Positions 1 to 35,034 of a DNA stretch of 35,034 nt are shown piece after piece. Made by a program: the position numbers and the translations under genes. The stretch comes from a virus. The notes under the pieces were generated by a model that saw only the letters and a list, made by a program, of their open reading frames with translations, searched no databases and had not been told where the DNA came from. The DNA is taken from IMG/VR virus record IMGVR_UViG_3300042898_001867, positions 1 through 35,034 of that record. One strand, written 5' to 3'. The number at the start of each line of letters is the position of its first letter. Positions within the stretch are counted from its first letter, which is position 1.

Positions 1-337
1 TGTCTCCATAGTAGGTCTTTCTTCTTTCCTTTCTGTTGTGGAGAATATCTAGAATCTCTGTCTTTTCGTCTTGGTCTAATTTCCCAACTAGACTAAAGTC
101 CTTTAGAATGCTGTAGATGTCCTTAAAGATTCCACATCCCCCGTTGTAGCACTTATAAGAAAGGGTGTCGAGATAAAAATTTCCCCTCTTCTTTCTTCCG
201 TCGTGACTATCTCCACAGTATGGACAGGAGAAGTTAAGTCTATTTCCTGCTCGATAAATTTTGTGTTTGTTGTGTTCTCCTGGGAATTCTTTCACCAGGA
301 CGTTGTTAATCAGGTCTTCAATTCTAGTGTCTTGCAT
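1..337 (-). CDS. DNA primase, T4 gp61-like, N-terminal part (cut by window edge)
   Basis: I translated the minus strand from an ATG at 337-335; the frame stays open for 112 codons to the window edge, so the catalytic part lies outside. Residues 34-71 form a zinc ribbon: Cys38-x2-Cys41, followed by GDS and a basic stretch ending in Arg-Gly, then Cys63-x4-Cys68. Order and flanking residues match the T4 gp61 primase zinc-binding domain (CPVCGDS, KARG, HCYNC), which helps recognise single-stranded template and start RNA primers at the replication fork. The second pair is spaced CX4C here, against CX2C in T4. The gene lies 63 bases downstream of the gp32-like gene, separated from it by a terminator, and so sits next to another replication-fork protein. 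The residues after the ribbon are charged and helical. What is seen is the ribbon; the primase identity is inferred from it and from the neighbourhood. Confidence 0.75.
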   Translation of the reverse strand, partial: MQDTRIEDLINNVLVKEFPGEHNKHKIYRAGNRLNFSCPYCGDSHDGRKKRGNFYLDTLSYKCYNGGCGIFKDIYSILKDFSLVGKLDQDEKTEILDILHNRKERRKTYYGD

Positions 338-357
338 AATCTAAATAGGTAAAAGAT

Positions 358-400: not shown

Positions 401-1354
401 TTATAGATCTGCGTAAAGATCGTCTAGAGATGATGCCGGTGTCGGCGTAGATGAAGTGTTGGGCTGAGCCTTAGTCGAGGTAGAACCGACGTTAGTTGAA
501 GAAGCTTCTGCGAAGAATTCGTTCGACTTGGTAGCAGGTGCAGCAGCAGAGACGTTAGTGGATAGGCCAGCTCCCGAGATGATCTCGTTAACCAATCTTC
601 CGTCAGGTACCGTGTTTCTGATGATCGACATTACCTTCTCTGTTGTCTCGTTGTCCCAGTCTTTGTAGTCGAAAGAAGCTAGATTCTGTGGACCAGTCTT
701 TAGGTACTCTACGATCGAGTCCATGTCTTCCTGGTTCTTCTCCATCTTCTTGCCTTCAACTTCGATTGAACATTTCTCGCCAACGAAAGAGCATAGGTCG
801 TAGTTGTTCCACTCCCCAACTTTTCTAGCGTGAACTGAGAATAATTTACCTTCGAATAGATCGAAAGGATTAGCAGGTGCTCCGTACTCTGGTTTGATCT
901 GTGCTTCGATCATGTCGTTTAGTTTTTTACCAAACTTGAAGATCATGATCTTTCCCTCTAGTTCAGGACGATTTTTGTCTTGAACGATCTGGATCAAGGA
1001 GTAGTAGTCCTCTTTGCGGCTGAAAGACTTAGCAAGTTCTTGGTCTGCTGCAGAATGTGAATTCTTCAACTTCCAGAAGATGTCCTTCAGTACTGATTTT
1101 TTACCTACCGTCGATGGACAGTCTACAGAGAATCCATTCCCCGTTGAAGGGTCTTGCAAATAAACGTAGTACTTGTGGATTTTTGATTTTGTGGGTTCAC
1201 TTGCATTAGGGACGAACCTAATTAGGGATTTGTAAACTCCATCTTTTCCGTCTTCGGGATAGGGTTTGTAAAATTCAAGATCTTTTGATCCTTCTTTTTT
1301 TACTGGAGTCACTAGTGACTCTGCGTCTAGATTGAAAATGTCTAAATTACTCAT
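401..1354 (-). CDS. Single-stranded DNA-binding protein, T4 gp32-like
   Basis: This 317-residue protein is close to T4 gp32 in length (301) and architecture. Its role would be cooperative coating of single-stranded DNA during replication, recombination and repair. Recognisable blocks are an N-terminal segment containing SLIRFVPN, like the gp32 AVIRFLPS strand; a central block with EGKIMIFKFGKKLNDMI, matching gp32 EGKVFKYRFGKKIWDKI; a flexible Ser/Thr/Ala/Pro-rich linker; and an acidic C-terminus SSLDDLYADL, like gp32 DLDDLLNDL. In T4 that tail recruits replication partners. The zinc ribbon of gp32 appears degenerate: where T4 has CSSTHGDYDSCPVC, this protein has CPSTVGKKSVLKD, losing the later cysteine pair. 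A terminator follows, the RuvC-like gene is upstream, and a 104-base leader carries a promoter-like motif. The start is preceded by AAAGGAAAC. Confidence 0.93.
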   Translation of the reverse strand: MSNLDIFNLDAESLVTPVKKEGSKDLEFYKPYPEDGKDGVYKSLIRFVPNASEPTKSKIHKYYVYLQDPSTGNGFSVDCPSTVGKKSVLKDIFWKLKNSHSAADQELAKSFSRKEDYYSLIQIVQDKNRPELEGKIMIFKFGKKLNDMIEAQIKPEYGAPANPFDLFEGKLFSVHARKVGEWNNYDLCSFVGEKCSIEVEGKKMEKNQEDMDSIVEYLKTGPQNLASFDYKDWDNETTEKVMSIIRNTVPDGRLVNEIISGAGLSTNVSAAAPATKSNEFFAEASSTNVGSTSTKAQPNTSSTPTPASSLDDLYADL

Positions 1355-3096: not shown

Positions 3097-3648
3097 TTAT
3101 CTAGCCATTTCCAAATCAATGGAGAGGTAGTTGTAGTTGAATCCAGCGGAGAAAGACGTGGCGGTCGGGGCATTCTGAGTGTAGTTCAGAGCCAGCTCAG
3201 AAAGTGAAGCAACGGTAACACCTTTAAACTGGACCGTCGTGATGACGTTTCCGTTGTTGTCTAGAATCTGCAGGGGTAAATTCTCCACAAATAGATCTGG
3301 GCTCTTAAAGTTCAGATGCTCTAGCATTGTCTCCAACATCACAAAGTAGTTGGTAAATCCTTCCGCTGCTCTGAAGGTGACATTGAATCCCTGGGAGAAC
3401 ATATTCTGAATTGGAATTGAACTCTGGTAGGTGATAGTCTTGCCTAGTGGTCTAGTCTGAGTTACACTTCCCGCTGCTAGAGAAGGAAATGAAACGGACT
3501 GAATCGTGCTGTTCATAAACTGGGTCAGAGTGTCGTAGGGAAGCGACTGACTCTTCAGATACTGAAAGTACTTGTCCTGAATTCCAGGAGGAAAGAATCC
3601 CTTCGGGAAAACAAAGTAAAAACTATTGGCCCTTGCGTTTAATATCAT
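3097..3648 (-). CDS. Tail-tube-like protein (T4 gp19 / gp48 / gp54 fold)
   Basis: This 183-residue protein is close in length to T4 gp19 (163). The order of segments is similar: an N-terminal strand (SFYFVFPKG); a segment corresponding to the gp19 ALPAGIVEKIPVGF region (VSFPSLAAGSVTQTRPLG, about residues 52-69); a helical or loop part with FTNYFVMLETML; and a C-terminal block FKGVTVASLSELALNY followed by a strand ending near the terminus. In T4 gp19 the last block reads IKGLWPTNVGELQLDW. This pattern fits the hexameric ring fold shared by the tube (gp19) and the tube-initiation proteins gp48 and gp54. I cannot tell which of these roles it plays. It follows the 805-residue gene by six bases, so the two may be assembled together. 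The assignment rests on motif order, not a computed alignment. Confidence 0.55.
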   Translation of the reverse strand: MILNARANSFYFVFPKGFFPPGIQDKYFQYLKSQSLPYDTLTQFMNSTIQSVSFPSLAAGSVTQTRPLGKTITYQSSIPIQNMFSQGFNVTFRAAEGFTNYFVMLETMLEHLNFKSPDLFVENLPLQILDNNGNVITTVQFKGVTVASLSELALNYTQNAPTATSFSAGFNYNYLSIDLEMAR

Positions 3649-6955: not shown

Positions 6956-8977
6956 TCAAAAATTAGCAAATTGATTCAATTTTTCTGGATTTCTAGAAGA
7001 TATAGACTTTCCAATAGCCTTAGAAATGAAGGTACCAACCTTCATTAGAACTTTACCTATCAGGTTGTCTTTTTCAAAAGATCCCATCTTGTATGCCATA
7101 TGATAAGCCCAAGGTCTAGCGACTGTCCAAACAATCCGAGTAAATAAGTGGGACTTCTGCATCAGATTAACGATAGGAATAGCCCAATAATGATAGCCAA
7201 GCATAGTTTCTGGGCTAGTTGCAGAAATCATTCTACCAAATCTCTCGTCCGCCTCTCTTATTTCATCCGACATAAGTCCCTGTCGGTGCAGCTCTGTACA
7301 AATTACTTTGAATCCTCCAATGAATCGATTATTATAATAGGGAAGCTGAACTGACGAACTGTATCCTGAAGAAAATGCCTCCAGATAGAAGAATTTATTC
7401 CCGCTTGAGTTTACTGCAGAGGGGAATTCTGATCCATAGAAATTGATTCTAACGTGTCTGCATCCACCGGTAGGTCCAGGGCTAGTCTGGCCAGAATCAC
7501 TGATCGTATAGTTGGAGTAGGAATCATTAGTCAAAACTGAAACACCACCTATGCAGTAAGTTGAGCTGTTCATGAAGAGGTCAACACAGTAGTCCTCACC
7601 TGGTTCAGTGTAATAAATTGGATAGGTAAGGCGGATCCAGATTCGATTGATTCTGCTCCCATCAGAAATAATAGGCCCGGTTGGATTAGGTGTGATCAGA
7701 ATGACATCGTCCGATGGTGTGATCTCGATATAGTTATTTAAATTTCCATTAATAGAAGCTCTGGAAGAAGCTGCATTTGTTATAGATTGATAAGACTTTA
7801 CGATGTTTGCCCCTGTTCCACCGCTAACTCCAGTAGATCCAGTGTATCCAATAACTAGAGCAGCTGAGGTTGCATCGATAATAGCGGGAGCTGGGGAGTT
7901 CCCAACGGAAAATAAGGTGTTATCCGACATGGACAGTCCCAAGCTGTTTCTCGTTGTTCCCCCGTAAAATCCTGAATAGTTAAATACGTTTCTCCTCCCC
8001 GTCTGAGAGTCGCTCAGAGTCCCAGTGATGTCCAGTGCATATCCGGTAGATGCTGCAGTAATCCCAATCGAAGATGACATGTTGGATAGGGCAAATCCAG
8101 CAGGACTGAGGGTTGAATTCCTGCTAGAAAATCCTAGGGTCTGTGAATTGATAGACAATCCGCCAGTAGCAGAAATCCCAATTGTGGTCGCAGAGCTAAA
8201 ATTAATGTTATTTGCGGAGACAAAAGCAGTCCCCCCAGTAGATCCGTAGGATCCTGTCGCCTGAGACTGGATTATCAAATCTTCCCCCGAGGAGAATTTA
8301 ATACCATAGTCAGTCCCTGTTGTCTTCCAATAGAAGGCAGGAAGTCCAGAAGAAGAATAAAATGTCTTATCGACCCCAAAAATAGGAAGAGAAGCAGTGA
8401 AAGAAGCATCGGTCTCGATTAAAACCTTAGCGTAGTTTGGGTTTGCATCTGCGGCAGTTACTTCCCTGTCGGTGAAGACGAACGTCGTGTTTAGAGGTCC
8501 GGTTCCAGAGTTAGGGGAAATGATAATTGCATCGTCTTCGGTTACTTCTCCGGGTCCGTAGATTCCTTGAAGTAGGGTAAACTGACTATCAATTACAAAA
8601 TTAGAAAGGGTATCCACCCAGAACGGGTAGTATCCAGAAGTGTTGTTGCCGTCGTATCTGTAGATTCTGTTTGGACCACTTGGACCTAAAGGTGATGTAT
8701 TAACCCAAATATCGTAGTTGATGAGAGGAGTCTCCGTATAGGGAACGTTGCCGTATGGCTGGTCCTCCTGAATAAACCAAAGATTTGCTCTAGTTCCAGT
8801 AGCACCAGTTGCTCCGTCTTTTCCGACCTGTCCGATGATTCCAGTCGGTCCTTTAGAACCTATTTCCCCGGGGAGCCCAACTGCATTGGCAAGGATCTGG
8901 GAAAAATTATAATTAACCTTTCCAAGTATCTGATTCTTATCGTCTCCTGGCAGTATGTAGTTCGTGTTAAAACTCAT
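6956..8977 (-). CDS. Collagen-like tail-fibre protein with helical C-terminal domain (673 residues)
   Basis: The N-terminus has the KVNYNFSQILAN helix (residues 20-31), a motif also seen in the other fibres here and probably the attachment end. Residues about 35-62 hold Gly-X-Y triplets (GLPGEIGSKGPTG, GKDGATGATG), expected to form a trimeric collagen-like stalk. Residues about 63-240 are clearly paralogous to the next gene upstream (shared ANPNYAK, DYGIKF and surrounding pattern). A long beta-rich part follows. From about residue 565 the protein changes character: an Arg/Lys-rich helical region (MLGYHYWAIPIVNLMQKS, KVLMKVGTFISKAIGK) runs to the end, unusual for a fibre tip. It may be an assembly or anchoring domain acquired by fusion. 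The protein presumably takes part in receptor binding or in carrying other fibres. Confidence 0.8.
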   Translation of the reverse strand: MSFNTNYILPGDDKNQILGKVNYNFSQILANAVGLPGEIGSKGPTGIIGQVGKDGATGATGTRANLWFIQEDQPYGNVPYTETPLINYDIWVNTSPLGPSGPNRIYRYDGNNTSGYYPFWVDTLSNFVIDSQFTLLQGIYGPGEVTEDDAIIISPNSGTGPLNTTFVFTDREVTAADANPNYAKVLIETDASFTASLPIFGVDKTFYSSSGLPAFYWKTTGTDYGIKFSSGEDLIIQSQATGSYGSTGGTAFVSANNINFSSATTIGISATGGLSINSQTLGFSSRNSTLSPAGFALSNMSSSIGITAASTGYALDITGTLSDSQTGRRNVFNYSGFYGGTTRNSLGLSMSDNTLFSVGNSPAPAIIDATSAALVIGYTGSTGVSGGTGANIVKSYQSITNAASSRASINGNLNNYIEITPSDDVILITPNPTGPIISDGSRINRIWIRLTYPIYYTEPGEDYCVDLFMNSSTYCIGGVSVLTNDSYSNYTISDSGQTSPGPTGGCRHVRINFYGSEFPSAVNSSGNKFFYLEAFSSGYSSSVQLPYYNNRFIGGFKVICTELHRQGLMSDEIREADERFGRMISATSPETMLGYHYWAIPIVNLMQKSHLFTRIVWTVARPWAYHMAYKMGSFEKDNLIGKVLMKVGTFISKAIGKSISSRNPEKLNQFANF

Positions 8978-8991
8978 TTTTTCTCAGAAGA

Positions 8992-10455
8992 TTAGACTGT
9001 AAATATTCCAGAAACCGAAGGGGTATCGTAGTAGATTAGGAAAGAACTGGAGGCAGTTCTGAGAACGTTGACCGTTAGTGATGTCGTTGCGGTGAAGGTT
9101 GAATTCCCTGCACTGGATGTTCCGTTTGTGCTATAGGAGATTCCAGAGATCGTATTAGATGCGGTAGAGCTGAAGATATTCATGGTCAGGGACTCTCCAA
9201 TTGCTATATAGTCAGACAGACCGGTAGATCCAGAGTTTAGAGGAATAGCAACCCCTATTCCAGATGATCCTGCAGTTAAATTTACAACCACTCTATTTCC
9301 GTTGGTTAGAATATTAGATCCAATAATATAGTAGTTCTTATTCGAGATTGTATAAGTTGGGGTGCTAGCTACGTACGTGGAATAAGCAAAATTGGTCTTG
9401 TCGAATTTTACCTTTCCGTCCGATCTAACATAGAATTTAGAAGTTCCAGAAGCCGAGAAGTTAGCCAGATATCTGCTGGTAGAAGCTGTTCCGGAGAGAT
9501 TAACATTTAGTCCTCCTCCCGTCGAAGTGTTCGAAAGAGAAACCATAGAAACTCCTCCAAAAGAACCGATGACGGTAACAGGAACACTAAACGAAGCAGA
9601 AGCAGCACTTAAGCTGAACTGATTGGAAGAAATGAGAAGGTTAGAGGATCCGGTGTTCAGGTTCAGATTTCCAGATGAGGTGAAAGTCATCGAATTGGTA
9701 GCTGAAAGAGATGCGGAAACCCCGGTAATATTTACGTTTCCACTGGTACTCTGAAGGGTTAGATTTCCACCTGCGATGATATCTAGGAGATCACCAGGGA
9801 CAACAAATCTAAGTCCATAATCAGAAGCAGAAGGGTTCTTCCATGCAAAGAAGGGGTGTCTGTTGTAGTCTGCGGGAAGTCCAGTTGCTAGATTACTCTT
9901 TGCAAATTCTAGTAGAGGGAATCCATTAGTTGCCTGGGTAGCAATTAAAAATTTAGCATATGTTGGGTTTGCACTAACTGTGGTCGTAACCGCATCGCTG
10001 AGAACAAACGTATTTGTGTTTGGGGTAGATGAGGACTGAACTATTGCATTTTTAGATGTGGCTCCTCCTGGACCAACAATTGCAGGTAGAGTCGTGAACG
10101 GGTTCTGGGCCTGAAGATTTTCTCCGGTGGAAACCCACCCTCCAGTTGCATAAGTATAAACTAACTTATCTTCGTTCGTGTCTACCCAGTAGTCTCCAAC
10201 AACGATACCAACCCCTGCGGTTCCCCCTAGAGGCTCGGTAGAAGAAAGAAACCATCTAGTTCCTCTTTCACCGGGAACTCCCTGATCACCGATTGGACCC
10301 GCTGGGCCAACTGATCCCTGGTCTCCCTGTGGTCCGTCTGGACCCTGTGGTCCTCCTCCATTGGCAACAATAGACCCAAAGTTCTGGTTTATTTTGTTTA
10401 CCAGATCTTCCTGGGTGTCCCCTAGAGTAAGATTTATGATAGTTAAATTAGGCAT
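8992..10455 (-). CDS. Collagen-like tail-fibre protein (487 residues)
   Basis: The N-terminal KINQNFGSIVAN helix (residues 21-32) is followed by a Gly-X-Y run at about 35-64 (GPQGPDGPQGDQG, GPAGPIGDQGVPGERG). Next comes a compact domain with GDYWVDTNEDKLVYTY, then a region paralogous to the neighbouring 673-residue fibre (ANPTYAK, ASDYGLRF). The C-terminal half consists of short Ser/Thr/Asn-rich strands (SLSATNSMTFTSSGNLNLN) like the beta-helical shafts of fibres, and ends in a small beta domain. It lacks the helical C-terminus of its paralogue. The gene starts after a 39-base gap with a promoter-like motif, so it probably leads the unit that includes the paralogue, the coiled-coil gene and the membrane-anchored gene. 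Confidence 0.82.
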   Translation of the reverse strand: MPNLTIINLTLGDTQEDLVNKINQNFGSIVANGGGPQGPDGPQGDQGSVGPAGPIGDQGVPGERGTRWFLSSTEPLGGTAGVGIVVGDYWVDTNEDKLVYTYATGGWVSTGENLQAQNPFTTLPAIVGPGGATSKNAIVQSSSTPNTNTFVLSDAVTTTVSANPTYAKFLIATQATNGFPLLEFAKSNLATGLPADYNRHPFFAWKNPSASDYGLRFVVPGDLLDIIAGGNLTLQSTSGNVNITGVSASLSATNSMTFTSSGNLNLNTGSSNLLISSNQFSLSAASASFSVPVTVIGSFGGVSMVSLSNTSTGGGLNVNLSGTASTSRYLANFSASGTSKFYVRSDGKVKFDKTNFAYSTYVASTPTYTISNKNYYIIGSNILTNGNRVVVNLTAGSSGIGVAIPLNSGSTGLSDYIAIGESLTMNIFSSTASNTISGISYSTNGTSSAGNSTFTATTSLTVNVLRTASSSFLIYYDTPSVSGIFTV

Positions 10456-23290: not shown

Positions 23291-23983
23291 ATGGACCAAA
23301 ACATACTGAGTGAAAAAACAAGGAACACGGACAAAAGAAGACCCAAAGGGGAAATCAAGTTTGCAATGTCCTTAAACGAGGAACAAAAGGCAGCAAAGTC
23401 CGAAATTCTCAAAAACACGGTTACTCTTCTGAGGGGCCAAGCTGGATCAGGAAAAACCCTACTTGCTTGTCAGGTAGCTCTGGATCTATACTTTACCAGG
23501 CAGATAGAAAAAATTATCATCACGAGACCTGTCGTTGAGGCAGCAGACCCTATTGGATTTCTTCCTGGAGACATGAAGGCCAAGATGGATCCGTGGTTAG
23601 CTCCAATCTATGCAAACTTGTACATGTTGTACAACAAGGAGCACATTGATAAGATGGTGGAGAATCAGTCCATCGAAATTCTTCCTTTCTCGTTTGTTAG
23701 GGGAAGAACTTTTATCGATTCGGTCGTTATTGTCGACGAGTGTCAAAACGTCAGCCACAGGCAGACCGAGATGATCGTTGGAAGACTTGGAATCAACTCA
23801 AAGATGATATTCTGTGGGGACACATCCCAGATAGATCTAAAGACCAAAAAAGAATCTGGGATTGATTTCTTCAAGACCCTAGAATCTAGAGTCGAAGGGG
23901 TAAAGGTCATCACTCTACTAAAGAACCACAGGAACAAGATAGTTCCTCAAATCCTAGAAATTTACAGAGAATACGAATCCTAA
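23291..23983 (+). CDS. phoH: PhoH-family ATPase
   Basis: This 230-residue P-loop ATPase of the PhoH family has Walker A GQAGSGKT at residues 49-56, ITRPVVEAADPIGFLPGD at 77-94 (the family signature), Walker B VVIVDECQN at 145-153, sensor-like GDTSQIDL at 176-183, and a putative arginine finger in NHRNKIV near 212-218. PhoH-like proteins are common in T4-type phages; an RNA-related ATPase role is suspected but unproven. About 25 residues precede the core, and an internal Met26 (MSLNEEQKAAK) is an alternative start; I prefer Met1 because it follows the promoter-like motif at a suitable distance. The gene is opposite in direction to all others here, and its stop overlaps the end of the 1203-residue gene by 4 bases (CTAA shared by both stops). 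Confidence 0.95.
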   Translation: MDQNILSEKTRNTDKRRPKGEIKFAMSLNEEQKAAKSEILKNTVTLLRGQAGSGKTLLACQVALDLYFTRQIEKIIITRPVVEAADPIGFLPGDMKAKMDPWLAPIYANLYMLYNKEHIDKMVENQSIEILPFSFVRGRTFIDSVVIVDECQNVSHRQTEMIVGRLGINSKMIFCGDTSQIDLKTKKESGIDFFKTLESRVEGVKVITLLKNHRNKIVPQILEIYREYES

Positions 23984-26900
23984 TTACCGCTAAAGGTACC
24001 ATAAGGATCATCTCTTAAGATCAGGCCTGAGCCGAATGGTTCTTCCATAGATTTTAAGATTTGTCCTTGTTGCTGGATTAGATCCTGGCTTAGTCTATAA
24101 GAAACATTCCCGTCCAGAGGAGTTAATGGAGGGTATCCATAGTCTACCGAATTGACAAACTCAGGATTAGGATCAGATGCAGTCGGAATAGACTGATTAA
24201 TAACCTTGATGAAAGCCGGTTTAGAAATCTGATAGACGTTTCCTGCAGCATCCTGAACTATATTCTGGATAGAATAATATCCAGCCTCGGTAAATGTGTA
24301 GATAAAGTAGGGGATGGATTTAACGTCCAGAATTGTCGTCTTGCTCGACTCGTCGGTCAGAACCCACTGGTTGTTTTGTTTTCCAAAAATCTGAGAAGCA
24401 TAGTTGCTAAAGAAGACCGTAGAAAGCATCGGGACCACTAGATCTCCATATGCTTCGTGAACGTCTGCCCATACCCAAGATCCAGATCCAGCTCTAGAAA
24501 TAATGTCTCCTAGATCTATTCCGGTCCCCGGTAAATACTGAGGGATAAATGCAGTGAAGGATGTATCGGTAGAAGAAGCATCAATCGGAAGTGCATCGGG
24601 ACCAGTAACACCCACCCTATATCCACCGATTAGTAGATTGTCTTCCAGGTCTAGTCCGAGTCTCATGTGACCAGTTCCAGGAACTCCGATAGATCCATTC
24701 AATCCCCCGCTCGGGTTCACCTTCCAGATGTAGTTGGTGGCAGTTCCGCCTTCAGTAAATATCGAATAGTACTTCTGTCCGGCCTTCCCAACGTCTATGT
24801 CGTCAAGACCGATAGATGTAATGTTTAAATCAACGGGAAGAACTTTGCTGCTGTGCAGCTTAACTGTCGATTCAGAAGGGGTTAGTTCTGCAGTTAAAAC
24901 GCTGTATCCGTTATAGTCCGGATTTTGGGAAGCTGTATATGATCCAAAAGAAGCAGTTCCAGAATAGAAGGTTGCCCAGTAGTATTTTCCGTCCCTGTAT
25001 CCAGAATCTATCCCTTGTTCGGGATTAATCGGAGCTGAATTTGTCTGGATGAAATTATAGGAAGATAGACTCCCTGAATAGTTTGCTACCATGTACAGAG
25101 GTCCAGTAGATCCGGTAGTTCCCCCTGTTAATCCAGAGCCAAGGAAACTGAATCCGTAAGAGTCTGAGGTTCCGGTGATTAGATAGGTTAGGGTTCCTTG
25201 ATCCTTCTGGACCGAATTGAAGATAACGTTTCCTCCAGTTCCAGAGGTGACCTTAGACTTTAGAAGTTCAAATTCGGTACCGATTGAAATCCAAAATCCA
25301 GACTTCAAATAAGACGAAGAATTCCAAGAAGAGAACAAGAATTCTGAAGTGGAAGGATTGTCGAGTCCTCTTTCCCATCCATCGCTATATGTGGAAATTC
25401 CACCCTTTAGTGTTCCCACGATGTCGACCTCATAGTTAGAGACCGCCAGAGAAAGGGTCTTTTCATAGAGCTCAGTATCTACTGTTGTAGAAGAAGAGTT
25501 TGGATCATAGGAAGAGCTGGCTGCAGGGAAAGATCTGAACTTTTTAAGTCTATAAGACGTCTCGAAATCACCGGCGGACCCAAAATCTATTCCTCCGTAA
25601 GAGGCTTGACTTCCTATGTTCTTTTCTATCTCCATCAAGAAAATTCCTTGCGCAGACGTATCAACCGGTCCTGTTGCAGGAATATACGGTCCTGTTGCAG
25701 GAAGAGCACCAGTTCCATCATAGATCCAAGGGTATAAGTATGGGCTTCCGGTTATTCCTGGAGTTTGAATATTAGAGAAACCGATCGGACCTCCAGTAGG
25801 TCCTCCAGTTAGTCCAGCAGCTCCTGGATAGGTAGAAGACCAAATTAGTTTTCCTGCTTCAACATACCCTTTATATGCTCCAAGAACATAGAGAGATTTT
25901 TGATCTACCGACGTTTGAATGTCCCAGACCTCGGTCTCATAACCTCTGATCGGGAGAACGTCCTGTACTTGTCCTGCTTCGTTATAGTAGGCAACATAGC
26001 CAACCTTCTGTCCAGACCTTGTGTAGCTAGATAGGGTGGGATTGGGATTTGTCAAAGTTAAAGGAGTCAAATTGTTTCTCAGACCAAAGTATGCAGTGTC
26101 TAAACTAGTGTACCCTCCTACTGCGTATTTTCCATCTATGTAGGACACAGATGTTGTTTTTGTAACTCCACCGGTAACTCCATCGACCCAGGAAGAATCT
26201 TGAAGAGATTGAGCAAGTTGGATCGAATCAAAATTTGGAATTTCACTTAGATTCCAGTAGTCTTGTTTTCCGGCTCTCCCGTCTGCAATAGCCTTTAGGT
26301 TTGCCTCCAAGAAGAGATTTCTAGGGTCTAGTCCAGGGTGTTTGTATTGAAGGTAATCGTTTTGATAGGTTCTCCAGGATGGGTAGGTCCAGGTATACTT
26401 GTTTGCCTTAGGAAGTTCTGCTTCGTCAGTCGGTAGAGCTTCGGTTGTTGGTGTATAGTAGACAAAGTTCCATCCGGTAGTTCCTGCATACTTAGAGGAT
26501 GCATAGACGTGGGGAATAACATAGTCAAATAAACCAACATAATTTCCAGAAGCAACAAAGATATCGTTGGGATAAATCTTCAGCCCGCTGTTGACAGACT
26601 TCGTCTCGGTCAGCATGATCGAGATAACGTCATCGGAAGGAAGACTAGAATTGGATGTATCATATAGAGTTAACGTGTCCCCATTAAAGTGGTACAGTCC
26701 AGTTCCTGATCCAGTGTTTGAATCTCCCGCTGCAAAGAAGACGTGCCCGTTGGGTCGGCTTTGAACGAAAGTGATCTCGTTGTTTGCAAGAGTTGGAAGA
26801 TTGGTAGTATCCCAGACGTAGAATTTATTTTGATCCCAGTAGACCAGTCCAGCATCGGTTCCAATCCAGAGATTCCCATTTTCGTCAAAATCCAGGGAGT

Positions 26901-27591
26901 AGATGACATCAGATGGGAGAGAAGTGTTTTTGCTGTTCCAAATCTGTGCTTGGTCTATGTAGGTTTCTCCACCTTCTAGGGTAGAGACTCTTAGAGTTCC
27001 ATCAGGGATAATATAAACACCATATTGGGTGGCTATGTAATAGTCGAAGGTAACTCCCTCGATCCCTTTAGCCTTAATGTCGTAGATGTGAGGCCAGGTA
27101 AATCCTTCCGCAGGTTGTGTCCAGGTAAGGTATGTCTTATCAAAAACATAGAGACTCCCGCCGGTAACTCCATATACCCCGGCAGGACCAGTCCCAGCTC
27201 CCCCGTTCAGAGGAGAAACGAAGGCAAGAACCTGTTCACCGAAAGGGGATGCATAGATTGTTGGAACGTCCAGGGATTGACCAGTTGCTCCTGTTACCTC
27301 CAGAGAGGTCCAGCTAGCTCCAGTTGCGGCAAAAGGTCCAGCTGCACTAAAAATTAAAGGAGTTGGCAGAGAAGGGGTAAATGCACATCCGACCCATTTT
27401 ACAGAGTCTTCGTCGATAGAAATACTTCTAGTGTCTAGGTAGTAGGGATTATTACCAGGAACTACCGAATTGGTAGAATCATAGTAGCTCCAGATGGAGC
27501 CGTCAAATTTAGTCAGATCCCTGCCGACTGCCCAGACGTTGTTAAATCCATCTAAAGCAGTTCCGTTAATATATCCTGTTGTACTTGCCAT
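23980..27591 (-). CDS. Double beta-propeller adhesin-like protein (1203 residues)
   Basis: Residues about 1-365 contain blades of the regulator-propeller type. Examples are NNVWAVGRDLTKFDGSIWSY near the start, NTSLPSDVIYSLDFDENG with NLWIGTDAGLVYWDQNKF near 230-265, and SSLPSDDVISI. This blade is typical of sensor domains of Bacteroidota two-component proteins. Residues about 485-1015 hold a second repeat resembling SBBP propeller blades: GKYAVGGYTSLDTAYFG, SLYVLGAYKGYVEAG, YWATFYSGTASFGSY, NLLIGGYRVGV. About 1040-1130 is PKD-like, ending FTEAGYYSIQNIVQDAAGN and KPAFIKVIN. Propellers usually bind ligands or partner proteins; here the protein is likely a virion appendage, being flanked by a PKD protein and baseplate genes. 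It has no signal peptide, as expected for a virion protein. Repeat boundaries were read by eye. Confidence 0.72.
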   Translation of the reverse strand: MASTTGYINGTALDGFNNVWAVGRDLTKFDGSIWSYYDSTNSVVPGNNPYYLDTRSISIDEDSVKWVGCAFTPSLPTPLIFSAAGPFAATGASWTSLEVTGATGQSLDVPTIYASPFGEQVLAFVSPLNGGAGTGPAGVYGVTGGSLYVFDKTYLTWTQPAEGFTWPHIYDIKAKGIEGVTFDYYIATQYGVYIIPDGTLRVSTLEGGETYIDQAQIWNSKNTSLPSDVIYSLDFDENGNLWIGTDAGLVYWDQNKFYVWDTTNLPTLANNEITFVQSRPNGHVFFAAGDSNTGSGTGLYHFNGDTLTLYDTSNSSLPSDDVISIMLTETKSVNSGLKIYPNDIFVASGNYVGLFDYVIPHVYASSKYAGTTGWNFVYYTPTTEALPTDEAELPKANKYTWTYPSWRTYQNDYLQYKHPGLDPRNLFLEANLKAIADGRAGKQDYWNLSEIPNFDSIQLAQSLQDSSWVDGVTGGVTKTTSVSYIDGKYAVGGYTSLDTAYFGLRNNLTPLTLTNPNPTLSSYTRSGQKVGYVAYYNEAGQVQDVLPIRGYETEVWDIQTSVDQKSLYVLGAYKGYVEAGKLIWSSTYPGAAGLTGGPTGGPIGFSNIQTPGITGSPYLYPWIYDGTGALPATGPYIPATGPVDTSAQGIFLMEIEKNIGSQASYGGIDFGSAGDFETSYRLKKFRSFPAASSSYDPNSSSTTVDTELYEKTLSLAVSNYEVDIVGTLKGGISTYSDGWERGLDNPSTSEFLFSSWNSSSYLKSGFWISIGTEFELLKSKVTSGTGGNVIFNSVQKDQGTLTYLITGTSDSYGFSFLGSGLTGGTTGSTGPLYMVANYSGSLSSYNFIQTNSAPINPEQGIDSGYRDGKYYWATFYSGTASFGSYTASQNPDYNGYSVLTAELTPSESTVKLHSSKVLPVDLNITSIGLDDIDVGKAGQKYYSIFTEGGTATNYIWKVNPSGGLNGSIGVPGTGHMRLGLDLEDNLLIGGYRVGVTGPDALPIDASSTDTSFTAFIPQYLPGTGIDLGDIISRAGSGSWVWADVHEAYGDLVVPMLSTVFFSNYASQIFGKQNNQWVLTDESSKTTILDVKSIPYFIYTFTEAGYYSIQNIVQDAAGNVYQISKPAFIKVINQSIPTASDPNPEFVNSVDYGYPPLTPLDGNVSYRLSQDLIQQQGQILKSMEEPFGSGLILRDDPYGTFSGN

Positions 27592-27614: not shown

Positions 27615-29315
27615 TTAGACACTTCCCCCAAAATTCATCAAATTGTAGGCCATGCCTGGTGTTATAGACAAAGGAGTTGAAAATAATCCAGAACAGGTCT
27701 CCAGAGAACCCTGTGAGTTTGCATAATCAGCGGTAAAAGGTGCTATTGGTGTTGCTAAAGGAGGCATATTAGAACTATAGTAACCGTTAATAGTTGCAGA
27801 GTTGTCCGAAATACTAACTAGCTGGACTAATGATGCGTTTAGAATTAGAAGGGCCACCCCATAATAGTCAGTCGGACTATACCCAGATCCAACTGGACTA
27901 GACCAGCCACAAGAGAAATCAGGACTTGCAACAAACTGAACGTTTCCAGTTCCTCCGGGTATAGAAGAATTAATAGCAGAATTGAGGAAGCTGACAAACC
28001 CAGAGCCGTTAACAGTATTCTGTGCGGTAAAGAAATTACCGGCAGTTAAAGGATCGTTCCCGGTAGCTCCCGCGATTCCGATAGAAGCAGTAGCTCCGTA
28101 AGGGATTCCTCCCAAGGTTACAGAAATGTAGATCTGGTAAACAGGATTAGCCGGGGTTGGGAAAGATGGAAGATTAATGTTCTGAAGATAAGCAGAGGAA
28201 TAAACAACCGGGTTAGAATCCGATCCACCGATATTTATAAAGGTCATCGGGGTTGGATTCTGTGTATTCGAATACTGGAGATTTCCGCTGTGTGCAATCT
28301 TGTATGGATTATTTACGAGGTAGTTAAGGAGTCCAGAACTGTAGCTGTAGTTTGCGTATAGATTCAGTAAAAGCCCCGAGGTATCACCGATAAAAAATTC
28401 AGCAGTCTGATCCGAGACGATATAGAACCCAAGATTTATAGCGTCATTTGGGCTGAGATAAGAGTAGGAAGAGTATATCGGTCCTTGAATTAGCATGAGA
28501 CCCCCGATTATGTCATTGTAAGTCGAGCTCCATAATCCAGTATTCATCATCACATTTGCAGTTTCTGTGTCTGAATGGAAATACAAATTTGTTTTATTAG
28601 AAGTCCCTCTCAGAAGATAATTAAGTCTAATTATCAGATTGGAAGAGGAATACCCGAAAAAGTTCATGTCAACCGGAATTCCACCGCTGGTAACAATTCC
28701 GCCAGAAAGTCCGGTTACAAAATTAGGACTAGAAGGGCCAGTTGCGTTTAGATAAAGCTGTTCAGCAGGGCCCAACTTTTGAACCTGCACAGACGTAGAA
28801 GCCGAGGACGAAAGATAAACATTAGAGGTAGACAGCGAAATGTTTGCAGTATAGGAAGACCCAGGTGCACCGGTATATCCCCCGGTTAACGTGTTCCAAT
28901 CAGCATATCCAGTAACACCAACGTTTTGTGTTGTTGCGGATCTTCCATAAGGAAGGGTCCACGTCCAGGAGGTTGGGGGGAAAGGAGTTCCAACTGTGGA
29001 GTCCTGAAGGCTGTATCCCTCGTTCATCTTCACGGATGAAGGAGATGGGCCAGAAATTCCAGCTACCAGAGTGGTAGGAGAAACCTGGATCAGATTGGTT
29101 TTTGTTAGAGTGGAAGTAGTTCCAAACGAATCAGTTTCAGTCAGAGAAACTGTGTAGTTCCCAGGGACGTTATAAAAAATCGCTGCAGTTATTCCAGTTC
29201 CTGTAGCAGGAGATCCGCCGGAAAAAGACCACGATCTAGTCAGGGGAACCGCTCCTGAACTTGTGTCGGTAAAATTTACCGATTGGTATTGGTATATTTG
29301 TAAACTCTCTGACAT
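27615..29315 (-). CDS. PKD-domain structural protein (566 residues)
   Basis: Residues 13-78 form a clear PKD domain: VNFTDTSSG, SWSFSGGSPATG, and the hallmark FYNVPGNYTVSLTETDSFG, closing with NLIQV. About 88-180 is a second, divergent copy (GYSLQDSTVG, PTSWTWTLPYG, YTANISLSTSN, SVQVQKLG). The remaining 385 residues are beta-rich and of no recognised family (NLIIRLNYLLRG, YQIYISVTLGGIPYG). PKD domains are Ig-like spacers common on surface and carbohydrate-degrading proteins; in phages they decorate tail or capsid proteins. It lies between the gp7-like and propeller genes with gaps of 16 and 23 bases. I infer a baseplate-peripheral or adhesion role. Confidence 0.75.
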   Translation of the reverse strand: MSESLQIYQYQSVNFTDTSSGAVPLTRSWSFSGGSPATGTGITAAIFYNVPGNYTVSLTETDSFGTTSTLTKTNLIQVSPTTLVAGISGPSPSSVKMNEGYSLQDSTVGTPFPPTSWTWTLPYGRSATTQNVGVTGYADWNTLTGGYTGAPGSSYTANISLSTSNVYLSSSASTSVQVQKLGPAEQLYLNATGPSSPNFVTGLSGGIVTSGGIPVDMNFFGYSSSNLIIRLNYLLRGTSNKTNLYFHSDTETANVMMNTGLWSSTYNDIIGGLMLIQGPIYSSYSYLSPNDAINLGFYIVSDQTAEFFIGDTSGLLLNLYANYSYSSGLLNYLVNNPYKIAHSGNLQYSNTQNPTPMTFINIGGSDSNPVVYSSAYLQNINLPSFPTPANPVYQIYISVTLGGIPYGATASIGIAGATGNDPLTAGNFFTAQNTVNGSGFVSFLNSAINSSIPGGTGNVQFVASPDFSCGWSSPVGSGYSPTDYYGVALLILNASLVQLVSISDNSATINGYYSSNMPPLATPIAPFTADYANSQGSLETCSGLFSTPLSITPGMAYNLMNFGGSV

Positions 29316-29331
29316 CTATTAGTAATTTAAA

Positions 29332-32300
29332 TTAAGGTCCAGTTGCATATGTGAAAGAAACTATCAACGGTGGTGGTGCTCCAGGAACAGTCGGGGGAGA
29401 AGCATATCCTCCGGAGGTTGCACCAAAGAAGGTGAACTCGATCTGAACCGGCTGAGCAGTTGTTAGAAGATCTCCAGATCCGTATGGATATACCTGGTAG
29501 TAGAAATTAGAAATGTGAGGCTCAGTCGAAGAGTTTAATTCTGAAACTGCTCCAGATAGGGTGATGTATCCGGTAGGTCCAGTTACCCCACCTGTTGCTG
29601 AAAAAGTAACTCCTACAGGGAAAGGATATGTCTCATTTCCCGTACTAACTTTAATGTTGTCCCCAACTTTAATGCTGTGAATTTCAAATCCTCCTAACCA
29701 TCCGTTCTCATACTCAAAATCATACCATCCATGAGCGTATGCTTGATCCCAAGTTGAGGTTGGAATAGAATCCCAGTTTAGATTTTTATATCCCCAGTAT
29801 CTTAGGTTCTCGTCAGGGAAGCTTCCGTAGTTTTCGTTCCACGAGATATACTGGCTTCCTGAGGTTGCACCTCCGGAAAGAGAAGGGCTGGAAGAAATAA
29901 CCTCTAGCGATCCGGTTACGACTGCAGTTAAGACGTCGCCATTGCCAACGTTTCCAGAGTCCGTGTTTGCTAGAATATTAAGGGTTGCAGGAATCGAGTT
30001 CGGCCCAGTGCAGCCTGCAAAATAATCGGGTTGGGTATACACAGAGTTAACAACTTCTACTATGGAATTAACGGTCGACTGAAGACTAGCTCCTGCTGAG
30101 GTTGCCCCAATGGATCTTCCATTAACTAAGATGTTAATCTCTCCTCCTCCAGTAACAGTCTGGCTCGTCCAGTAAGAAGGGTCTATGTAAGTTGCAGTTG
30201 CACCAGGGATATAGCCTGTACTTCCCGCAATAATTCCATCGCCAGGTTCCAATACCACCGGAATCTGGAAAGAATTTCCAGTGGCACCGGGAGGTATTTC
30301 AACGTCCCACGCACCGTTTATTTCCGGAGTTGATCCTGAGATGAATACCAGAGATCCCTCGGTAAATCCGTGTGGCTGATCTGTTACGATCTGAACAAAC
30401 CCGTATTGGTTGCTGGTAGGGCTTCCCGGTAGGGAAGGAATCCAGACCGAATAAGCCTGAAGTATGCTGTAGAAGCTCTGCTGAAGAACTATATTTCCAG
30501 AAGCACCCTGCGGATTAATCGGAACTCTCACCATCATATCTGCAGTTCCCTGGACGTTGTTTCCGTAAGTTGAAAACTGAAGGATTTCCGGGGGAAGATT
30601 CTGAGTTAGTTCACTGTATGTTTTTCCTTCTGCTGGATATTCCCAGATGGACCCGTAGGAGTCCCAATCTCTGATTGTTTGGTTCCAAGAATAGTACTCG
30701 TTCTGTCTGTACCTGGTCCAAGCATCCATCTCGATCTGGATTGGATCGACTTTAATCAGAGAATTCTTAATGATGTTGTTCTTGAAGTTAAACGAATCGT
30801 AGACGTTGCAGGTAACCATATATTCTCCCGTGTAAGGAAGGAAATGGGCCAGTTTATTATAGTCCATGATGTACCCCCTCTTCTGGAAGTAATAGGGTGT
30901 TCCTGGTTGGGTTGCAGTTTTTTCTATGATCCACTCAACCTCGTTGTAGGTCGAGAAATCTATATTATCCCAGTTCAGAAGTTGAAGATCCTGAATTGTG
31001 GAAGTCAAAAGATTTACGGTCAAAAATGTTGTTGACAGATCAGAAGAAAGTCTAACGTGGTAAATCTGATCTGTGTAGGAACCGGTTGTTCCTATAATTT
31101 GTGCTCCGACTCCTCCGGTAGTTCCGGTTGGTCCAGTTGGTCCATAGAAAGGACCGGATGGATCCTGGTACGTTTTAACGTTAACTAAATCTCCAATTTT
31201 AAAATCAGGAAGCTTCAAAGAATTCCAGCTGACTCCCATTTCATCCCAAACCCAGATGTCCAAAAGTGTTTCCAGAATGACCGGCATTCCGATTGGATTC
31301 TGATAGGGGAGACCTGTTGCAGGTTCAATATAGTCAATGGGATCTGATGTTCCATCTCCCAAAGATTTTATTTGACCATTCTCTTTCAAATAGTAGAAGT
31401 TGGAAATGGCATCCAGCATAGCTGAATTTTGAGAAGAGCTATAGTTTTGAAGGTTATCAAGAGGTGCGGAAACGTTCCCTAAATCAGAGCTAGGAGAGTT
31501 CACTATGGTCATAGTTCCCTGAAGCTTGGTTGGATTTACACTAGAATAATAGTAGATAGTGGTCTGTTCCTGCGGATTTACGTTAATTGTAACAGGTCCA
31601 CCAGTTCCCCCGATTGTCCCGTTATTAGTAACACCTAATGGATTAACTTGAGACAGAGAAGACTGTGTGGTAAGATAAAAGTCATATCCTGTGGTAACAA
31701 GAGTAAAGTTGTATGTCTTTCCTTTTTCTAGAGTAATAATTGGATTATATCCCGGGACAGCTACAAGTGTATCCGTCTGGCCAGTTGCTCCAGAGAAGCT
31801 AAAGGCATCTCCCGAAGGTCCTACTATGCTGACATTATAATCTATAACGTCGAAGTAGTTCATCGGAGCTTGGATCGAGTTAGGGTAAGTTCTGAGGCCA
31901 AAAGATCTAAGATCCTCAATGTATCCCTGTGGGGGGTTTGCCTTAATGTCTAGATTAAATCCAGAGTCGATGTCGTTTCTCTCCATCGTATCTGTCCAAG
32001 ATCTAGTATTATAGACTTCAAAATAAACACCTTCTCCAGTGATGTCTACTATCCTTGCATTTAGGGGTAGATAGGTTAGTTTAAGTCTCTGCTTTAGAGC
32101 AAAGAGTTTAACCAGAATTTCCTCCTGACTGAAGACAAATGCCTCCTCAGTAATAGGATATCCATATTCGTCCTCCAGAACAGTCGACTTGTTCAGATCG
32201 TAGTAGAGACCAAATAGAGAAGTCTTTTTGTAAGTTCTGCTAGGAACTAGGGTATCTTCTCCAGAAACGTTCAGAACGTAATTTCCGTCTGCATCTGGTC

Positions 32301-33648
32301 CATAGGTCTGTTCAAGTCTATATTTCCCACTATTTTCATTATCCAAAACATCAGCGATCTGGATCGACTGGTTGACCATGAAGCTCTGGTCGTATTTATT
32401 GAGGAACATCTGGTTCTCCAGAAGAGGGCTAACCTTTACCTTCTGGTAGTTTAGATTTAACCAATATTCCTTGATTCTTAAATCTTGGTAGCCGAAGAAC
32501 TGAAGTGCTCCAATTAGACCTTTGTAAGCTCCGATATAGGGAAAGATTTCTTCCCCCGCAACCATCAATTCCTTTCTTTTCTCGTTGATCTCTATCCAGT
32601 TTGGAAGTGGTTCATAAGGGTCGTGTCCCCTTAGAATGTTAGAGTCAATTTGATAGAATGCCCTTCCGAGGTTTGCGGTCAGAACATCGAGACGAGAATC
32701 TTCTCCTATAATCTGTCCATAAAATAGGATCTCTACAATCTTTTCCGGTGTTCCTGATGTTATGTCTTCTACTACAAGCCTTCTCTCGTAGACCTCTGCT
32801 GCAACATCAGGTGCATTTAGAGCAACGTTGATAGACAGGGCGGAGGAGTCTACTGATCCAGAGGTGGTTTGGACATATCCAGGATAAGCAATAGAATAAA
32901 AATCTGCAGAAGTCCCACCAACAGGGATTGCAATGTTCTGGTAGTTGATAATAGAAGGTTCCCCCGAAATATCAGGGTCGTTCTGAACAATCTGGTAAGT
33001 GAAGATGATCTCGGAAACGTCTGTGTTTCCGTATGTGTCGTTCGCCCATCTAGTTCTCCATAACCGGGTTCCTGCAGTTGGTCCAGTTGCATTGGTGTGG
33101 GGATACCCAAGTTCACCTGTGGATCCAACGACAAATTCCTGCACAATAAAGATCTGCTGGTTCTCGTAGAGTCCTGCAGAGATTGGATCGAAATACATCT
33201 CCCCGTAGAAATATCCACCGGGTAGATTTGTGTATTCGGTCGACAGGTTTATGTCGTTCTGGTCGGAAATAATAGTAGATCCCAGAATTTTATCTACAGT
33301 TAGTGTAATCGTAGGCCCGGAGATAGAAACATCTCTAACTCTAAAGCTTAAATCGTTAGCAGGGTAGACCGCTAGGTTAACCCTAATGGTTGCTCCGTCT
33401 ATGATGGAAGCTAAGACTTCTTGAGCCCACGGAATGAGATTTCCTCTAGTTCTATCTGTTGTATTTAGATAGACAAGTCCATTGTCAATGTCTACAAGGG
33501 AAATATATCCATCAGCTGGGGATGATCCAGAATTTGTGGAATAGTAGAGGTAACTGGTGTCTAAATTAGCAGATCCAGTTGGACCAACATATGCAAAATT
33601 TAGAGGGTCTCCTTGCTTATCAAAAAACCTTAAGTGTAAATTTGCCAT
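29332..33648 (-). CDS. Baseplate wedge protein, T4 gp7 / P2 gpI-like, with extra beta domains (1438 residues)
   Basis: Residues about 318-405 carry the P2 gpI-type core: LDVLTANLGRAFYQID, then KRKELMVAGEEIFPYIGAYK, GLIGALQFFGYQDLRIKEYW. This GT/AY-x-GLxxALxxFGY pattern marks gpI-like wedge proteins, and T4 gp7 is the gpI equivalent. The protein is longer than T4 gp7 (1032). Added modules are a cupredoxin-like domain at about 630-715 (NPIITLEKGKTYNFTLVTTG, TTIYYYSSVNP, GTMTIVN) without obvious copper ligands; a PKD-like strand set at about 915-970 (FLPYTGEYMVTCNVYDSF); and an FCCH-like module at about 1081-1156 (PHGFTEGSLVFISGSTPEI), duplicated in the 1976-residue gene. In the wedge, gp7 holds the gp6 dimer, matching the gene order here. 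The gpI-like role is inferred from motif and neighbours. Confidence 0.65.
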   Translation of the reverse strand: MANLHLRFFDKQGDPLNFAYVGPTGSANLDTSYLYYSTNSGSSPADGYISLVDIDNGLVYLNTTDRTRGNLIPWAQEVLASIIDGATIRVNLAVYPANDLSFRVRDVSISGPTITLTVDKILGSTIISDQNDINLSTEYTNLPGGYFYGEMYFDPISAGLYENQQIFIVQEFVVGSTGELGYPHTNATGPTAGTRLWRTRWANDTYGNTDVSEIIFTYQIVQNDPDISGEPSIINYQNIAIPVGGTSADFYSIAYPGYVQTTSGSVDSSALSINVALNAPDVAAEVYERRLVVEDITSGTPEKIVEILFYGQIIGEDSRLDVLTANLGRAFYQIDSNILRGHDPYEPLPNWIEINEKRKELMVAGEEIFPYIGAYKGLIGALQFFGYQDLRIKEYWLNLNYQKVKVSPLLENQMFLNKYDQSFMVNQSIQIADVLDNENSGKYRLEQTYGPDADGNYVLNVSGEDTLVPSRTYKKTSLFGLYYDLNKSTVLEDEYGYPITEEAFVFSQEEILVKLFALKQRLKLTYLPLNARIVDITGEGVYFEVYNTRSWTDTMERNDIDSGFNLDIKANPPQGYIEDLRSFGLRTYPNSIQAPMNYFDVIDYNVSIVGPSGDAFSFSGATGQTDTLVAVPGYNPIITLEKGKTYNFTLVTTGYDFYLTTQSSLSQVNPLGVTNNGTIGGTGGPVTINVNPQEQTTIYYYSSVNPTKLQGTMTIVNSPSSDLGNVSAPLDNLQNYSSSQNSAMLDAISNFYYLKENGQIKSLGDGTSDPIDYIEPATGLPYQNPIGMPVILETLLDIWVWDEMGVSWNSLKLPDFKIGDLVNVKTYQDPSGPFYGPTGPTGTTGGVGAQIIGTTGSYTDQIYHVRLSSDLSTTFLTVNLLTSTIQDLQLLNWDNIDFSTYNEVEWIIEKTATQPGTPYYFQKRGYIMDYNKLAHFLPYTGEYMVTCNVYDSFNFKNNIIKNSLIKVDPIQIEMDAWTRYRQNEYYSWNQTIRDWDSYGSIWEYPAEGKTYSELTQNLPPEILQFSTYGNNVQGTADMMVRVPINPQGASGNIVLQQSFYSILQAYSVWIPSLPGSPTSNQYGFVQIVTDQPHGFTEGSLVFISGSTPEINGAWDVEIPPGATGNSFQIPVVLEPGDGIIAGSTGYIPGATATYIDPSYWTSQTVTGGGEINILVNGRSIGATSAGASLQSTVNSIVEVVNSVYTQPDYFAGCTGPNSIPATLNILANTDSGNVGNGDVLTAVVTGSLEVISSSPSLSGGATSGSQYISWNENYGSFPDENLRYWGYKNLNWDSIPTSTWDQAYAHGWYDFEYENGWLGGFEIHSIKVGDNIKVSTGNETYPFPVGVTFSATGGVTGPTGYITLSGAVSELNSSTEPHISNFYYQVYPYGSGDLLTTAQPVQIEFTFFGATSGGYASPPTVPGAPPPLIVSFTYATGP
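30181..30408 (-). repeat. Duplicated FCCH-like module, copy in the gp7-like gene
   Basis: This is the partner of 14701-14931. It lies in the C-terminal third of the gp7-like protein, after the PKD-like strands. The DNA is also similar but synonymous sites differ often, so the duplication is not very recent. Confidence 0.85.
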
Positions 33649-34229: not shown

Positions 34230-35034
34230 TTATTTATTTGCAGCTATTAGTTGAGCTTTAGTTTCTGCTCCAAGTTCAGAAAGATAAGTAACTGGAACTA
34301 TCCCTTTAATAGAGATGTTTAATGCAGAAGGTTTCCCTGGTACGATTCCAACTTCATAGGAAGATCCGTATCTGTCGTTCCATCCACCTCTAATAACAAC
34401 TAGTTCTCCTCTTCCGATAATTATATCTCCAAATTCATCAAATCCAATATTGGTGTTCAACTCGGAAACGCTGGTGTTTGGAAGATTGTCTATCGTAGCA
34501 TGGTAAGCTTCGTTTGCTTGTCCTACGAAATAGAAAGAAACAGAATCAACACCAGGAACAGATTCGATCAAAGCGATCATATCGGATTTAGGAATTTTAT
34601 CCCTTCTCTTCAAGTTGATAAAGTATGTGGAAATAGTCGACTGGATTTTGTCCTTGATAATCTCCGGGTCAAATCCTTCAAATACGGTAATGATTGCATT
34701 TCCTACATATCTGGAAATTCTTGGTTCTACTATCTTAACAACGGTAGTTGCTATCATCGACCCAGAATCTTCGATTAAATTAAGGATTGCTAGCTTCTGA
34801 GCCTGAGTTAGCAAGAAAGAAGATATAGGAATGCTGAAATAGTCCTCGTTAGAAGTGAGCCCAATAGTCACATCCGGAACTAGGTAGAGGTAGACTACGT
34901 TATCATCGTCCAGATACTCATCGTCAAAAGTAGAGAAGGCCTGGATCTGAGAGAAGATGTTAAACTTCTGAAGGTAAATCTCGTAGTTTGCAGAATTTGC
35001 AAAGACGAATGCCCTGCTAGTTTTTGGTGCTGCC
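34230..35034 (-). CDS. Baseplate wedge protein, T4 gp6 / Baseplate_J-like, C-terminal part (cut by window edge)
   Basis: The frame is open to the window edge; I translated it beyond the GTG at 34871, which is internal (upstream in-frame residues include IYLQKFNIFSQIQAFSTF and NVVYLYLVPDVTIGL). The C-terminal part shows the Baseplate_J layout: a helix TQAQKLAILNLIEDSGS; a strand block KIVEPRISRYVGNAIITVF; then a helix EIIKDKIQSTISTYFINLKR leading to DKIPKSDMIALIESVPGVDS, where the 'I..S.....I..I.GV..V' pattern is the hallmark of P2 gpJ and T4 gp6. These proteins dimerise to build the wedge ring around the baseplate hub. The last 90 residues are beta-rich (GDIIIGRGELVVIRGG). It is followed by the 190-residue gene and the gp7-like gene, the wedge order expected. 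Confidence 0.75.
   Translation of the reverse strand, partial: AAPKTSRAFVFANSANYEIYLQKFNIFSQIQAFSTFDDEYLDDDNVVYLYLVPDVTIGLTSNEDYFSIPISSFLLTQAQKLAILNLIEDSGSMIATTVVKIVEPRISRYVGNAIITVFEGFDPEIIKDKIQSTISTYFINLKRRDKIPKSDMIALIESVPGVDSVSFYFVGQANEAYHATIDNLPNTSVSELNTNIGFDEFGDIIIGRGELVVIRGGWNDRYGSSYEVGIVPGKPSALNISIKGIVPVTYLSELGAETKAQLIAANK

Follow-up and report, generated by a model that had tools for sequence, protein, structure and literature searches.

The window analyzed here is a 35-kb IMG/VR virus fragment (35,034 nucleotides), whose neighboring genes are named wN (e.g., w566), with N being the length of the product in residues. The gene under study runs from 27591 to 23980 on the minus strand, starts with ATG, and encodes a protein of 1,203 amino acids (ORF call), referred to below as the two-propeller protein. 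The first-pass annotation had reported a gene at 23980-27591 without naming a strand; the ORF is real and lies on the minus strand, and the plus-strand reading of 23980-27591 contains no ORF and is full of stops. The gene and the main members of its surroundings are as follows:

23980..27591, minus strand: two-propeller tail/baseplate-region protein, 1,203 aa (ORF; relatives at ~80 viral loci; AlphaFold model)
27615..29315, minus strand: PKD-domain protein w566 (PKD_4, E = 6e-7; mean pairwise identity, 29%)
29332..33648, minus strand: large protein common to Lak, PAU, MaF61, and other phages (tblastn)
34230..34871, minus strand: gp6-like baseplate wedge protein, C-terminal part (complete in relatives)
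3097..3648, minus strand: tail tube protein, gp19-like (phrog_45, E = 8e-12)

The cassette that holds the two-propeller gene is flanked by the gp6-like baseplate wedge gene, full-length relatives of which match the phrog_219 baseplate wedge subunit (E = 1e-32 to 4e-27), and by the gp19-like tail tube gene. In all loci with enough downstream sequence (79/79), w298 was the next recognized structural gene, and in the 72 loci whose upstream sequence was long enough, the recognized upstream neighbor was either w566 (48 loci) or w1438 (24 loci). With neighbors this constant across loci, the gene is a fixed member of the tail/baseplate cassette, which is where an adhesin gene would be expected. The order between the gp6-like wedge and gp19-like tube genes agrees with the baseplate-side location given in the first-pass annotation and makes a role in the virion likely; the protein may have its place in the baseplate itself. 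Profile searches against the PDB gave no identification for w1438, w732, or w298.

Other observations concern the neighboring genes themselves. A PhoH gene (23291-23983, plus strand) overlaps the end of the two-propeller gene by 4 bases with its own end. In relatives, PhoH keeps its position between the two-propeller gene and w298 with an identity of often only 32 to 45%; its strand is opposite to that of the two-propeller gene in 69 loci and identical in 5, and no PhoH was detected in another 5. This low identity, the strand change, and the five loci in which it was undetected suggest repeated replacement at this spot. w566 (27615-29315), another candidate host-contact protein, was not recognized as the nearest upstream gene in 24/72 loci. 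The proteins encoded consecutively at 6956-8977 and 8992-10455 contain short collagen-like stretches and are probable fibers.

The window also carries a T4-type gp32 gene (PF08804, E = 3e-12), and the phage appears to be a T4-like large phage. Since the large neighboring proteins match those of Bacteroidota phages, namely the Lak (Prevotella), Tenacibaculum pT24 and PTm, Chryseobacterium MA9V, and Flavobacterium MaF61 phages, the host is likely a member of the Bacteroidota; matches were also found to phage PAU, recorded from Sphingomonas. The moraphage lineage, for which mostly Bacteroidota hosts have been predicted, has been described as having a comparable core, with gp6, gp19, and PhoH among its members (PMC12619734). 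Two scans of viral contigs yielded relatives of the two-propeller protein at ~80 loci, with 37 to 100% identity over the best segment, on contigs of up to 434 kb. An annotated phage collection contained no relative detectable by tblastn, and a search of eight related records with the family profile found only the PKD-like end of a w1438-type protein (MaF61 and LR756500). On these grounds, the gene appears to be confined to one clade among the records examined. It was not found in the 462-kb phage LR756500, the tail cassette of which contains a GIY-YIG/NUMOD3 endonuclease-like gene (L087, 7559-8785). A scan of bacterial genomes with the whole protein gave no relative and thus no prophage or misbinned phage that could name the host.

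The architecture of the protein was predicted with AlphaFold2 for residues 1 to 1195, using 49 sequences (mean pLDDT, 77.9; pTM, 0.77), and the blade counts were derived from the predicted secondary structure of this model. The model comprises seven four-strand blades (8-355), seven longer repeat units (~468-1016), an eight-strand sandwich (1051-1131), and a helix (1162-1182), and the pLDDT falls below 50 in segments 360-388, 396-430, and 1028-1043. All parts lie on the minus strand:

26527..27570, minus strand: first propeller, residues 8-355, Reg_prop type (model; alignable blade profiles; PDB profile search)
Residues 8-37, 53-94, 107-158, 169-218, 230-260, 273-310, and 322-355, minus strand: first-propeller blades, four strands each (model)
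26854..26922, minus strand: Reg_prop blade motif, residues 224-246 (Pfam PF07494, 23.3 bits versus a cutoff of 20.4)
26197..26526, minus strand: linker, residues 356-465 (conserved; 357-430 low confidence, then helical)
24532..26196, minus strand: second propeller, residues 466-1020, divergent (model)
24454..24531, minus strand: arm, residues 1021-1046, including GDIISRAGSGSWVWADVH (highly conserved, low-confidence structure)
24187..24453, minus strand: PKD/Ig-like sandwich, residues 1047-1135, eight strands (model; weak PKD matches in relatives)
23983..24186, minus strand: C-terminal tail with helix 1162-1182 (model)

The predicted plan is thus 7 + 7 + sandwich. The seven sets of about four strands in the first propeller mostly have a pLDDT of 80 to 94, and the seven repeat units of the second, which begin near residues 477, 551, 707, 789, 861, 926, and 973, mostly have a pLDDT of 75 to 95; the latter units could not be aligned with each other by profile. 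Confidence is low in the linker (pLDDT, ~31 to 53 across 361 to 440) and in the arm (<50 at 1028-1043). The first-pass annotation had proposed two different propellers with boundaries at residue 365 and at 485-1015, followed by a PKD-like end, and had suggested structure prediction as a check. The model, with two separate predicted propellers of seven units each and a sandwich, comes close to these boundaries, and the two propellers do differ, with the first being of the Reg_prop type and the second having neither Reg_prop nor SBBP sequence kinship.

By sequence, the first propeller reads as a genuine Reg_prop propeller. It contains the WIGTDAGL and SLPSDVIYSL/SLPSDDVISI motifs; Pfam Reg_prop exceeds its curated cutoff once (224-246, E = 5.7e-5), and 30/33 family members match this model (E ≤ 0.1). 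In profile-profile comparisons, the best-scoring blade pairs were N1-N2, N1-N5, N1-N6, N2-N5, N4-N5, N5-N6, and N5-N7, and because the blade profiles align pairwise, the pattern is a repeat rather than a single chance motif. When the first-propeller profile A5 was searched against the whole PDB, only five distinct sequences matched at an E value of ≤0.1, all of them BT4663-, BT3049-, and BT4673-type sensors or PorZ (best E = 3.6e-28). The regulator-type blades and the kinship with Bacteroidota sensor propellers that had been noticed from the letters alone are therefore upheld by the Pfam match and by the PDB profile matches.

Comparison of the full model with Foldseek ranked chains of HTCS sensors 1 to 15 (E = 2e-13 to 5e-12) and PorZ 24th, with low TM scores (0.14 to 0.31 over the whole length), which we attribute to a different placement of the domains. 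Propeller folds occur in a number of glycoside hydrolases and lyases, and propeller enzymes (CylK and, for the model of the relative L082, GH74) appear in the Foldseek rankings below the HTCS sensors. An enzyme acting on surface polysaccharide is nevertheless a highly improbable reading: searches of Pfam, NCBIfam, and PDB sequences gave no enzyme family match, and the best matches are noncatalytic sensors and PorZ.

When the first propeller was used as a tblastn query against bacterial genomes, it matched 14 loci over partial stretches with 25 to 47% identity; 11 of these loci belong to Bacteroidota, and 3 belong to Gammaproteobacteria. The best cellular match is a 1,923-amino-acid protein of a Saprospiraceae MAG (L096, 2337-8108), which, judged by eye, resembles a secreted subtilase carrying PKD and Reg_prop-like repeats. 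The sensor kinship holds, but the earlier view of regulator propellers as mainly sensor domains was too narrow, given this subtilase-like protein and the surface protein PorZ. A host origin of the first propeller, judged from these similarities, is plausible. If it was captured, this would have happened long ago, since the first propeller is present in every relative found and even the nearest cellular sequences reach only 25 to 47% identity over short stretches.

The second propeller is a predicted propeller by fold only, and a profile search found no PDB sequence match for it. Its blades at ~485-1015 had initially been described as SBBP-like; propeller-like repeat units are present there in the model, whereas the SBBP label had to be rejected, as no match was found in the two-propeller protein up to an E value of 10 or in 33 members up to 0.1. 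For the PKD-like end, the model gives the eight-strand sandwich, and PKD (PF00801) weakly matches 17/33 members (best E = 3e-4; individual scores seen were below the cutoff of 23.5), in keeping with the original assignment; the protein of the window itself gave no PKD match. The best PDB profile match of the sandwich is marginal (E = 0.049) and concerns a KIAA0319-like protein, a protein known for its PKD domains. Homology of the sandwich to the PKD-like parts of w566 and w1438 was considered but is not claimed, as the same motif lines up with negligible probability in profile comparisons.

The conservation pattern divides the protein into parts. Mean pairwise identities over 350 pairs were 71% for w732, 61% for w298, 60% for w1196, 54% for w1438, 44% for the two-propeller protein, and 29% for w566; within the two-propeller protein, they were 51% for the first propeller, 57% for the linker, 33% for the second propeller, 61% for the arm plus sandwich, and 45% for the tail. 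Among 15-residue windows, conservation is highest at 1031-1045 and next highest at 362-376; these two windows fall largely in low-confidence segments of the model, and linker window 418-432 is likewise among the most conserved of the family. Such conserved segments of low predicted confidence may be assembly contacts with other virion proteins. This would also suit a baseplate or tail protein of purely structural function, in which the propellers would be spacers or docking platforms without direct host recognition, as would the conserved position in the cassette and a first propeller nearly as conserved as the structural neighbors (51% versus 54 to 60%). We consider a purely structural protein unlikely, however: its second propeller comes close in divergence to w566, the most variable protein of the cassette (33% versus 29%), and whole domains have been added independently in loops.

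These added domains are found in several relatives. In L078 (8001-13031) and L082 (8001-13229), a whole DUF5122 propeller with 6 to 7 DUF5122 blades (E = 2e-71 and 9e-77) lies within blade 2 of the first propeller, between the equivalents of residues 71 and ~74-79, i.e., in the loop that links strand 2 of the blade to strand 3. In a model of the N-terminal 780 residues of the L082 protein (pLDDT, 76.9; pTM, 0.54), the insert forms about seven regular repeat units at middling confidence, with the flanking blade strands intact and the outer propeller resuming after the insert. In L025 (8001-13064), the first propeller carries an Asp-box/Ycf48-like insert of ~310 residues (PSII_BNR, E = 8.5e-5, below the cutoff) in blade 3, again in the loop from strand 2 to strand 3. 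In propellers, such strand 2-to-strand 3 loops share a face with the inter-blade loops, and presumably, both the DUF5122 and the Ycf48-like insertions are located on this face of the first propeller. The second propeller of L065 (7953-12137) contains an Lcl_C-like domain (E = 9e-7, below the cutoff); different inserts occur near 971-975 in L047, L049, and L052, and many members have 87 to 107 residues before position 628. The proteins of L051 (6756-11621) and L041 (7278-11606) are extended at the N terminus, with long runs of PT-rich repeats (PTPTPTQTLTATP) joining the extensions. On a tree of 54 members, insert and extension traits change six times, with close relatives lacking inserts; the N-terminal extension was left unscored for L070, whose open frame also runs upstream.

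The divergence between domains and the inserted modules indirectly support a role in host recognition. We therefore think it fairly probable that the two-propeller protein is a peripheral baseplate or tail component of T4-like large Bacteroidota phages that takes part in host-surface recognition; receptor binding by the protein would be part of this role. In the mechanism that we propose, the linker (357-430), arm (1021-1046), and sandwich (1047-1135) would fasten the protein to other virion proteins, and the conserved Reg_prop propeller would be a rigid platform. The fast-changing second propeller would contact variable cell surface structures, most likely glycans, and extra domains in second-propeller loops or in second/third-strand loops of first-propeller blades would likewise contact the cell surface. 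A glycan as ligand is plausible, and the adhesive role and the interfaces named here are putative assignments drawn from conservation. The large insertions could also be tolerated passively, and recognition may reside elsewhere, e.g., in the collagen-like candidate fibers (6956-8977 and 8992-10455).

The closest known systems include the periplasmic sensor domains of Bacteroides hybrid two-component systems (HTCS). The BT4663 ectodomain has a plan of seven blades, seven blades, and a β-sandwich (PMC5121618). The HTCS sensors BT4663, BT4673, and BT3049 (PDB 4a2l, 3ott, and 3v9f) likewise have two seven-bladed propellers and then an all-β C-terminal domain; the first propeller of the phage protein is related to them in sequence, and these sensors are its top 15 structural matches. 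In contrast to them, only the first propeller of the phage protein is of the Reg_prop type by sequence, no counterpart was found for its linker and arm, its C-terminal domain is PKD-like and not matched to the Y_Y_Y domain, and the domain arrangement in the model differs (TM, 0.14 to 0.31, whole length). The phage protein also differs in having no signal peptide, membrane helix, or kinase: Pfam and NCBIfam searches gave no kinase, and on inspection, the N terminus (MASTTGYINGTALDG) has no hydrophobic leader. PorZ shares the 7 + 7 + sandwich plan and matches the first propeller in sequence (E = 1.2e-6), whereas the NCBIfam PorZ model scores only 18.7 bits against a cutoff of 260, and the phage gene lies in a tail cassette, with nothing to suggest a T9SS role.

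This fold plan of host sensors and PorZ would fit a nonvirion protein of the infected cell, e.g., one that interferes with host surface sensors. We give this explanation very little weight, as the N terminus has no visible signal peptide or lipobox, a membrane or kinase part is lacking, and at every locus examined, the gene is part of the tail/baseplate cassette. By analogy with BT4663, a scissor-like switch on the baseplate can also be imagined, in which a glycan would shift the propellers, the linker and arm would trigger contraction, and inserted propellers would retune specificity; we regard this elaboration as improbable.

β-Propellers occur in tail or vertex proteins of other phages, namely phi11 gp45, PRD1 P2, and phiKZ gp131, for which receptor binding has been shown or is suspected, the function of phiKZ gp131 being unconfirmed (PMC4901313). 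As described there, each chain has a single propeller, with five blades in phi11 and PRD1 and seven in phiKZ gp131C, and the passages on them mention no Reg_prop relationship; the present family differs in having two propellers per chain, with a third inserted in the first in some relatives. "Structural proteins" of T4-like cyanophages (S-ShM2 E3SJZ4 and ACG-2014h V5USF6) are predicted to be propeller-like and match by fold only, with partial coverage. The literature searched, whose coverage leaves out most subscription journals, contains no report of regulator propellers or DUF5122 in phages. What is new is therefore not a propeller-bearing phage adhesin as such, since these are already known, but a two-propeller chain with the plan of a host sensor and with nested propellers.

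To our knowledge, little is known about host recognition by large Bacteroidota phages. The family described here provides a defined candidate: it has the plan of a host glycan sensor, its core is conserved while its second propeller diverges, and its natural insertions include a propeller in a propeller. Its conservation pattern suggests which segments to test for assembly versus recognition. Our best reading is that the two-propeller protein is a baseplate-side host recognition protein in which the core is conserved and modules can be exchanged.
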